From Sphingobium sp. (GTDB lineage Bacteria > Pseudomonadota > Alphaproteobacteria > Sphingomonadales > Sphingomonadaceae), in NCBI GenBank assembly GCA_009360885.1, contig SPEL01000008.1:62001-126000 (forward strand): a stretch of DNA of 64,000 nt, in the 5' to 3' direction. Shown here piece by piece: positions 15,329 through 18,010 of the stretch; position 1 is the first letter of the stretch; every line of letters begins with the position of its first letter. The position numbers and the translations under genes were made by a program. The notes under the pieces are model-generated. The model had not been told where the DNA came from and made no database searches. It saw only the letters and a program-made list of their open reading frames with translations.

Positions 15329-15700
15329 TTAGCCGCGCGCACTTTCCAGACCAAACATGCGGTCAACCTCCAGAACCAGATCCCGCAGGTGAAAGGGCTT
15401 GGATAATATCTTGGCCTGCGGCACGGCCTTGCCGGCCTTCAGCGTCACCGCAGCGAAGCCGGTGATGAACATCACTCGCATATCGGGCGCGATTTTCGCG
15501 GCGAGCTGCGCCAGTTCAATGCCATCCATTTCCGGCATCACAATGTCGGTCAACAGCAGATCGAATCGCTCCGTTTCCAGCAGAGGCAGAGCCGCCGTGC
15601 CACGATCAACCGAAACGACATCATAGCCAGATCGTTCCAGCGCTCGCGCCAGATATTGGCGCATTGCATCCTCATCTTCTGCCAGCAAAATACGAACCAT
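15329..15700 (-). CDS. cpdR: Single-domain response regulator CpdR
   Basis: A 123-aa receiver domain with no output domain. Acidic pocket residues (E8, D9), the phospho-acceptor D52 in LLLTDIVMPEMDG, and the conserved Thr and Lys (FITG, LSKPF) are all visible. In alphaproteobacteria CpdR, when unphosphorylated, primes ClpXP for degradation of cell-cycle proteins and sits at the end of the CckA-ChpT phosphorelay. The CpdR call rests on length, overall likeness and its place next to the divergent N-formylglutamate amidohydrolase, a common sphingomonad arrangement. Confidence 0.82.
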   Translation of the reverse strand: MVRILLAEDEDAMRQYLARALERSGYDVVSVDRGTAALPLLETERFDLLLTDIVMPEMDGIELAQLAAKIAPDMRVMFITGFAAVTLKAGKAVPQAKILSKPFHLRDLVLEVDRMFGLESARG

Positions 15701-15890: not shown

Positions 15891-16805
15891 ATGCCATGGG
15901 CTTGTGGCCCGATATACGCATTTCACCCCGGTAACGGGCGGGTAGGCGGGCAGAATATGGGGCCGGTTATGATATCGGTTCCCCATGCCGGACGGGCTTA
16001 TTCTGCCGCCATGGCGGACCGTAGCCGTGTTCCGCCAGAGCGATTGATGAAGTTGGAGGATCGTTATGCAGACAGGCTGATCGCGGGCTTGCTGGAATGC
16101 GGATATCCGGCATTGGTGGCGCATTTGCCGCGGGCGGTGATCGATCTTAACCGTGATCCGCGGGATATTGACCCTAAAATGATTGCGGATATTCCCCGGC
16201 ATCTGCCGATCATACAGACAGCGAAACAAAGGGCGGGGCTGGGCCTGTTCCCGCGCAGCCTGCCGCGCTATGGCGGGCTGTGGCGCGGGGCGATGTCGTG
16301 GGCTGAGGCAGAAGGTCGCATAAAATTAGGGCATGAAGCCTATCATCAGCGTCTGGCGGAGGCGCTGAATCATTGTGCGGCTTACCACGATCAAATCATA
16401 TTGATGGATGTGCATTCCATGCCTCCGCTTGCAACTATGCAGGGCGATGGCAAGAGGGCGGATGTGGTGGTTGGAGACCTTTACGGTGCATCGGCGTCGT
16501 CTCGTTTATCAGAAATTGCCCTGAATGTGGTGAAGGCGCATGGGCTGGTCGGGGCGCTCAATCAGCCTTACCCCGGCTCTTATGTTTTGGAGCGGCATGG
16601 CAGGCCGCTGAATGGGCGGCACGCGATACAGTTGGAAATATCGCGCGATCTCTATCTGGACGATAGCCTTGCTGAGCCGGGAGAAGGAATGGCGGCTATG
16701 CAGGTGCTGTTGGTTGATATGGCAGAGCAGCTAACAAGGGCCGTATCGAGGGAGCCAAGGACCAGTCGGGATGATGGCCATGGCTGGGCTTGTGCCGCGG
16801 AATAG
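15891..16805 (+). CDS. N-formylglutamate amidohydrolase family protein
   Basis: A 304-aa zinc-hydrolase-like protein of the N-formylglutamate amidohydrolase family, which releases formate from N-formylglutamate in histidine breakdown. Family blocks seen are ISVPHAGRAY, the acidic LEDRYADRL segment, VIDLNRDPRDIDP, MDVHSMPP and RHAIQLEISRDLYLD near the C-terminus. No other histidine-utilisation gene is nearby, so the true substrate in this genome is uncertain. Start at 15891 follows AACGAGA; the in-frame ATG at about 15957 is an alternative. Confidence 0.8.
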   Translation: MPWACGPIYAFHPGNGRVGGQNMGPVMISVPHAGRAYSAAMADRSRVPPERLMKLEDRYADRLIAGLLECGYPALVAHLPRAVIDLNRDPRDIDPKMIADIPRHLPIIQTAKQRAGLGLFPRSLPRYGGLWRGAMSWAEAEGRIKLGHEAYHQRLAEALNHCAAYHDQIILMDVHSMPPLATMQGDGKRADVVVGDLYGASASSRLSEIALNVVKAHGLVGALNQPYPGSYVLERHGRPLNGRHAIQLEISRDLYLDDSLAEPGEGMAAMQVLLVDMAEQLTRAVSREPRTSRDDGHGWACAAE

Positions 16806-16837
16806 CCGCTTTCACGGATATTCTTTCTATGCCCTAT

Positions 16838-16867
16838 AAAAAACCACCCTATGCGAGCATAGGGTGG
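16838..16867 (-). terminator. Intrinsic terminator of the candidate sRNA
   Basis: Near-perfect stem of 10-11 bp (16844-16854 with 16857-16867, CCACCCTATGC) followed on the minus strand by six Ts. It is not needed for sapC, which has its own terminator upstream at 17098-17132. It may also stop plus-strand readthrough from the amidohydrolase. Confidence 0.8.
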
Positions 16868-16941
16868 CCAGGTTCAGGGAGGAAACATCTTCAGCAGAAG
16901 ATGCCCATGCGGCACCAGAAAGGGGAACAAGTGCCAGCACA
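16838..16941 (-). ncRNA. Candidate trans-acting small RNA with anti-SD motif
   Basis: About 104 nt on the minus strand between a sigma70-like promoter and a strong intrinsic terminator, with no credible reading frame. In 5'-3' order the RNA would form a hairpin closed by GGCAC/GTGCC (arms 16931-16935 and 16911-16915), a perfect 7-bp hairpin (16886-16892 with 16897-16903), then an unpaired stretch containing TTTCCTCCC (about 16876-16885), which is complementary to ribosome-binding sites, and last the terminator. This layout is typical of alphaproteobacterial sRNAs of the suhB/alpha-r14 kind, but I cannot confirm membership. The 5' end is inferred from the promoter. Confidence 0.6.
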
Positions 16942-16947
16942 ATAGTA

Positions 16948-16976
16948 TAATTAGGGAAACTGTTGCCATTTTTCAA
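16948..16976 (-). promoter_or_regulatory. Sigma70-like promoter for the candidate sRNA
   Basis: On the minus strand TTGAAA (16971-16976) is followed after exactly 17 bases by TAATTA (16948-16953); TATACT overlaps just downstream. Transcription would start near 16941. The surrounding 16945-17100 region is AT-rich and carries no gene. Confidence 0.5.
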
Positions 16977-17097
16977 CTGTTGATCTGTTATATTATTCTG
17001 GTTGAAAAAATGACTTGACAATAAAATGGCTAAAAACTGCTGTTTTTGCGCATGATGCGGAGCAATAATTTTTCTTAAATCGATGCTTCAGTCAATC

Positions 17098-17224: not shown

Positions 17225-18010
17225 TTAAGCAACCGGGGCTGGTTGCGGTGCAGGAAAATTAGGAACCTTGCCCTGATCGACCTGCTGCTGGAAAATATCC
17301 CGCATCAATTGCAGCGAGAAGAGGTGAGCGTAGATCAGCGGCAGCATGCCGTTCTGGTTGATCTTACGGAGCTGATCGCCACGCAGCTCACGCAGCTTTT
17401 CTTCATTCACCATGCCAAAGCCACGATAGATGAAGGGCTGGTCATTATTCGGCGTCTGAATAGCGACTTCGCCATCCATGATGAGGTCCATGTCCTTCAA
17501 ATCTTTCATGAACAGGCTGGTGCGATGGGCGGCCTGTTCAAATTCTTCGCAGAATTTCAGGATGTTCTGCGTCAGTTCGGTTGGCTGCTTGTCATCATTG
17601 AGTAGGGCTTCACCATCTTCGAACTCACCGATCCAATCTACGCTGGGGTCAAAGCAAAGCGACAGATCCTCATTATCCGGGCGCAGCTTAGCCAGCATCC
17701 ACGGATAGCGGCGGACATAGGCCGGGACATAGGCCTGTCCACGCAGCTTGCCATCATCATCCAGAAATACGTTGACGCCTTCGTTGAGGCCCATCAGCGC
17801 GAGGGGGACGGGGTCTTCGCCTGCGGAAAAGATAATCGGTACGAAACGCTGGGCCGCTGAAAATTCATCAATGGTCAGCGGAACGGCGTGCTGGTTTTTC
17901 AGGAAAGGGGCTGTGTCCACCTGACGCACGCGAAAATTGCCATGCTCATTGCTGTTGAGCGGAATGAGGTCATTGTAAAAAATGGGCAGATTATTGGGCG
18001 CGCTGGCCAT
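17225..18010 (-). CDS. SapC family protein
   Basis: A 261-aa soluble protein of the SapC family (Pfam SapC), common in sphingomonads and Caulobacter and often found near TonB receptors and tryptophan halogenases. Conserved-looking parts are the VPLTIDEFSAAQRFVPIIFS region, the AYVPAYVRRYPWML segment and the C-terminal YRGFGMVNEEKLRELRGD. There is no signal peptide. The name comes from a Campylobacter surface-layer locus, but the biochemical role is unknown. GGAGATA precedes the ATG. It is a single-gene unit with its own terminator. Confidence 0.85.
   Translation of the reverse strand: MASAPNNLPIFYNDLIPLNSNEHGNFRVRQVDTAPFLKNQHAVPLTIDEFSAAQRFVPIIFSAGEDPVPLALMGLNEGVNVFLDDDGKLRGQAYVPAYVRRYPWMLAKLRPDNEDLSLCFDPSVDWIGEFEDGEALLNDDKQPTELTQNILKFCEEFEQAAHRTSLFMKDLKDMDLIMDGEVAIQTPNNDQPFIYRGFGMVNEEKLRELRGDQLRKINQNGMLPLIYAHLFSLQLMRDIFQQQVDQGKVPNFPAPQPAPVA

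Follow-up and report, generated by a model that had tools for sequence, protein, structure and literature searches.

The stretch of DNA analysed here (the window, 64,000 nucleotides of a Sphingobium contig) carries a short minus-strand segment between a SapC-family protein gene and a gene for N-formylglutamate amidohydrolase (FGase), and the question raised by this locus is whether the segment specifies a regulatory RNA and, if so, whether that RNA belongs to a known family. The first-pass annotation had proposed a trans-acting small RNA (sRNA) with an anti-Shine-Dalgarno (anti-SD) stretch, possibly of the suhB or alpha-r14 group or of a sphingomonad-specific family. The results showed that the locus is most likely a well-conserved member of an already described sRNA family that falls below threshold in Rfam, and we are highly confident that it represents, in Sphingobium, the alpha-R8 sRNA gene linked to FGase, whose orthologues are called MmgR in Sinorhizobium and SisA in Caulobacter.

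The predicted sRNA, about 103-106 nt, occupies positions 16838-16943 on the minus strand, as judged from the promoter and terminator positions; its 5' end was placed from the -10 box at about 16943 or 16940, and its 3' end is at 16838. The promoter-like boxes TTGAAA-N17-TAATTA reported earlier are present on that strand, with the -35 element TTGAAA at 16971-16976 and, across a 17-base spacer, the -10 element TAATTA at 16948-16953. In the 30-locus alignment the -35 region is TTGAAA-like overall with an invariant TTG, and TAATTA aligns with TAATTA/TATCTA-like hexamers of the orthologues. Of the 77 loci with enough sequence (80 loci in total), 68 are preceded by a related -35 motif, CTTGNA, whereas the window's own region reads GTTGAAA. 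Most DNA matches within the genus start at query positions 81-96, i.e., near 16940-16925. At the other end lies an intrinsic terminator (16838-16869, minus strand) with a 12-pair stem, a 4-base loop and U6, found by the terminator scan and by covariation, and the six Ts that had been noted are at 16843-16838. Taken alone the scans are weak, with three promoters found versus a shuffled mean of 0.7 and two terminators versus a shuffled mean of 0.7.

Folding of the 108-nt segment gave -43.5 kcal/mol (z -4.53), and none of 200 shuffles was as good. Both of the perfect or near-perfect hairpins described previously were recovered on the minus strand by sequence and folding, namely hairpin 1 with a C-rich apical loop at 16907-16940 and hairpin 2 (CATCTTC-TGCT-GAAGATG, seven perfect pairs and a UGCU loop) at 16886-16903. 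They are followed on the same strand by the 10-mer UUUCCUCCCU at 16876-16885, an exact match to the described alpha-R8 seed; the sequence search placed TTTCCTCCCT at 16885-16876 of the minus strand. The 10-mer had been called unpaired, which holds for the centroid structure but not entirely for the minimum-energy fold, where two of its C residues pair with the GG before hairpin 2.

Compensatory changes were sought across sphingomonads, as the first-pass annotation had advised, in an alignment (A1) of 54 sequences hand-picked from 77 distinct ones, with near-duplicates and several sequences with long 5' regions left out. Two-sided changes occurred at 12 of the 21 pairs, and 97.9% of the cells were paired in comparison to 38-59% when the partners were slid by 1 to 3 columns. 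The number of cells with two-sided changes was 148 versus 51 in shuffled alignments, a value that none of 500 shuffles reached. Hairpin 2 and the terminator both covary: for hairpin 2 two-sided changes were seen at seven of the eight aligned pairs with 95.0% of cells paired, and for the terminator at five of the 13 pairs with 99.6% of cells paired. The seed region is invariant in A1, partly because the pattern used to select loci contained the seed.

A CCC-loop hairpin 1 with at least 6 pairs is found in 75 of the 77 distinct orthologues (the exceptions being L098 and L108), and in A1 the CCC and one T of its loop, which lie outside the selection pattern, are invariant in 54 of 54 sequences. 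Hairpin 1 was missing from the RNAalifold prediction for the 54 sequences of A1, which we attribute to clades that align poorly with each other. Inspection by eye suggests that several loci of other families have a 5' hairpin too. The idea that hairpin 1 is a Sphingomonadales extension was thus dropped; what may set it apart is the C-rich loop alone, and this conserved CCC loop is possibly the main novelty of the locus.

DNA matches to the locus were found in 90 of 94 Sphingobium genomes, and in the remaining four the model R1, built from Sphingomonadales copies only, matched at 7.3e-22, at 6.7e-8, weakly at 0.002, and in one genome not at all. At the level of the order, matches were found in 160 of 196 genomes; under strict filters no match was obtained in 36 of the 196, and the window's own family accounts for at least 19 of these. 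The locus is the single clear copy in its own genome, with R1 giving 8.2e-22 for it and 0.09 for the next separate locus. A pattern scan of a species-genome collection returned 84 stretches, of which 80 loci (L051-L130) were retrieved; their titles name genera such as Sphingobium, Sphingomonas, Novosphingobium, Qipengyuania and Erythrobacter, and some belong to metagenome-assembled genomes with less specific titles. Most orthologues are one base off the 10-mer. Among the 30 genus loci the exact 10-mer occurs in the window only and the other 29 carry UCUCCUCCCU, while the 80 other Sphingomonadales loci have the exact 10-mer in 14 cases and UCUCCUCCCU in 51.

The Rfam covariance-model search that had been recommended ranked RF00519 (suhB, 'mmgR') first, over the full model length, with 30.5 bits and E 8.9e-5, below the gathering cut-off of 41; at Rfam's own thresholds only two tRNAs are found in the window. 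The alpha-r14 (NfeR1) group was not named among the five Rfam matches up to E 10 in the Rfam copy used, which may list that family under another name or not at all. Alpha-R8 is described by three hallmarks, namely a terminator, the 10-mer preceded by a weak hairpin, and, in most species, linkage to FGase (PMC12559287). The window locus has the exact and mostly unpaired, single-stranded 10-mer, a Rho-independent terminator with a covarying stem, and an adjacent FGase gene (PF05013); a covarying hairpin stands directly upstream of the 10-mer, although its stem has seven perfect pairs where that of alpha-R8 is called weak. The sub-cut-off RF00519 match, the 10-mer, the FGase linkage and the covariation of hairpin 2 and the terminator are together consistent with the earlier proposal of an anti-SD sRNA that acts in trans and belongs to the suhB group.

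It could be argued instead that the RNA belongs to a sphingomonad-specific family, whose likeness to alpha-R8 came about by convergence on an anti-SD motif, since the window copy and all 16 orthologous loci tested miss the RF00519 cut-off, most orthologues depart from the 10-mer by that one base, and the hairpin 1 loop is C-rich. We consider this improbable, because a position near FGase is common to loci of other families (16 of the 28 retrieved) and the Sphingomonadales-only model R1 recovers members of RF00519. R1 had matches in 64 of 190 genomes of the class, and among the 30 loci retrieved FGase was found in 18 and the exact 10-mer in 21, or in 16 and 20 of 28 without the two loci of the window's own family; these counts score as a miss L148, which is short and unreadable at the expected offset. 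The RF00519 cut-off was reached by 20 of the 20 R1 loci scanned, all from other Alphaproteobacteria; the ten others of the 30 include the window, L148 and one near relative. R1 in this way connects the RNAs of Sphingomonadales with members of RF00519 outside the order. The earlier suggestion of a sphingomonad-specific family was therefore half right, in that there is a Sphingomonadales branch, but the family itself looks Alphaproteobacteria-wide.

With regard to gene neighbourhood, the sRNA is followed downstream by the convergent FGase gene (15891-16805, plus strand; PF05013, E 1.7e-59) and preceded upstream by the SapC-family gene (17225-18010, minus strand; PF07277, E 6.3e-70). A convergent FGase gene lies within 300 bases in 41 of the 72 loci with enough sequence; in the other 31 (e.g., L052, L057, L061), of which 27 are titled Sphingobium, FGase is absent within that distance and the sRNA is kept, suggesting that the RNA is maintained independently of this neighbour. 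Beyond FGase, a response-regulator gene (15329-15700) was observed in the window and likewise in the other-family loci L151, L155, L156 and L160; the arrangement of FGase and response regulator is possibly an ancient gene neighbourhood.

The sapC neighbour raises the possibility that the element belongs to sapC, as part of its 3' UTR or as an attenuator, and is not an independent gene, as it is on the sapC strand and, in 54 of the 63 loci with enough sequence, SapC is found upstream at a distance of no more than 1.5 kb. This reading appears very improbable, given that SapC is 2.4-3.2 kb upstream in seven of the other nine loci and is not seen in the sequence examined in two, that the promoter-like boxes are conserved, and that a terminator-like hairpin on the sapC side (17121-17105) lies between sapC and the sRNA, which bears out the separation from the sapC terminator noted in the first-pass annotation. 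Still more remote is a small protein gene, for which the window offers a 64-aa ORF with a signal-like segment (16827-17021, minus strand), and in 26 of 30 loci an ORF of 50 aa or longer runs through the seed, 18 of the 30 having one in the same frame as the window, but such an ORF lies in another frame in 16 of 30 loci, lengths vary from 51 to 410 aa, a 1-base insertion falls between seed and terminator in 61 of the 77 distinct sequences, and the stem changes are compensatory.

The assignment to FGase-linked alpha-R8 leaves the other RF00519 matches of the genus to be placed. RF00519 is over its cut-off in all 94 Sphingobium genomes, with 3 to 15 matches each at E <=0.1, a limit that admits chance matches (7 of 14 control genomes have one, only 1 of them over the cut-off). 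In the window's own genome the two best RF00519 matches are seed-altered paralogues and the window locus is third. The 12 loci inspected (L031-L042) have UCCUCUCCUA where the 10-mer would stand; ten are over-threshold matches from other species, and the two from the window's own genome score 48.4, over the cut-off, and 40.0, below it. The 11 inspected over-threshold matches in Sphingobium are thus changed-seed paralogues, and all 94 Sphingobium genomes contain CAGGCATCCTCTCCTA. In 32 of 42 paralogue loci (L031-L042 and L172-L201, some near-identical) GCAMTTGC was observed upstream of AGGCATCCTCTCCTA, in 31 of the 32 at 45-46 bases before AGGCATCC, and by eye the other paralogue loci have variants such as GCATTTGC at that position. 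This upstream element resembles a -35-type or activator site common to the paralogues; SisA-D of Caulobacter reportedly have no promoter motif in common (PMC12559287). Two paralogous copies on the same strand are often separated by about 6.3-7.4 kb (G001, G008, G009, G010, G016, G020 and others), which suggests a conserved locus between them. A tentative and rather doubtful proposal is that alpha-R8 of Sphingomonadales could be a two-seed RNA, with the 10-mer and, as another conserved site for pairing, the apical loop of hairpin 1 (CCCCCUUU or CCCCUCAU), and that it divides its labour with the separate, expanded paralogues (altered seed UCCUCUCCUA, shared -35-like TTCGCANTTGC).

As to its mode of action, the sRNA would be transcribed from a sigma-70-like promoter of its own, located between sapC and the FGase gene, and would fold into hairpin 1, hairpin 2, the mostly single-stranded 10-mer and the terminator, a structure based on sequence and folding and, for hairpin 2 and the terminator, on covariation. 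Together with Hfq, the 10-mer would pair with G/A-rich ribosome-binding sites on mRNAs from other loci and so block their translation; by analogy with SisA, such Hfq-dependent blocking is the most likely mechanism. For SisA, compensatory mutation showed that the 10-mer pairs directly with an mRNA leader, and in that system the CrfA RNA serves as a sponge (PMC12559287); MmgR limits polyhydroxybutyrate storage (PMC7143759, PMC8401924); and the SuhB RNA of Sphingopyxis binds the thnR leader and lowers thnR translation with Hfq (PMC6563040).

Complement searches of the genome with a 13-mer and the 10-mer, allowing <=1 mismatch, identified no target. The 13-mer complement gave five sites, of which one is the gene's own antisense, one (L169) lies 30 bases before the ATG of an 83-codon ORF, and the remaining three had no plausible start in view. 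The 10-mer complement gave 186 sites versus 127 for a control pattern. Two of these are exact, namely the own antisense and a second site without a close downstream start of a 90-codon ORF, whose reading frame carries what we take to be an alanyl-tRNA synthetase motif; besides the latter, only L240 (TTG start, 95 aa) was flagged among the 30 of the 186 sites retrieved. We also compared TonB-receptor loci, using 28 of the 30 fetched from 66 Plug matches (L221 and L228 had no ORF and were dropped). Pairing with the core was better for these 28 loci than for 55 ORFs of the window (p 0.004). The same difference was obtained with the 16S anti-SD control (p 0.003) and with the loop of hairpin 1 (p 0.002), and none with the core of the paralogues (p 0.80). 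We take the signal to reflect better-called ribosome sites and do not count it as evidence of targeting.

In general, the analysis indicates the canonical FGase-linked alpha-R8 gene of sphingomonads, which the Rfam cut-off misses in the window and in every orthologous locus tested, and in work on carbon catabolite control in pollutant degraders the wrong copy could pass for the MmgR/SisA equivalent. A search of titles and abstract beginnings found no publication on this locus in Sphingobium; the 2016 family phylogeny of Lagares and colleagues may include Sphingomonadales, and we thus make no claim to a first report.

In comparison to known systems, the window RNA shares with alpha-R8 (SisA-D of Caulobacter crescentus and MmgR of Sinorhizobium meliloti) the core after a hairpin, and the terminator; it shares the FGase neighbour with SisA, and it aligns with RF00519 at the GUUUCCUCCCU core. 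Unlike those RNAs, it has a C-rich hairpin 1 loop and one clear copy with the core in the genome, and its predicted length of about 104 nt compares with 77 nt for MmgR. The SuhB of Sphingopyxis granuli TFA is likewise a suhB-named, Hfq-dependent sphingomonad sRNA, but its length is 61 nt (PMC6563040), and by length it would fit the multi-copy paralogues with the changed core better than the window locus.
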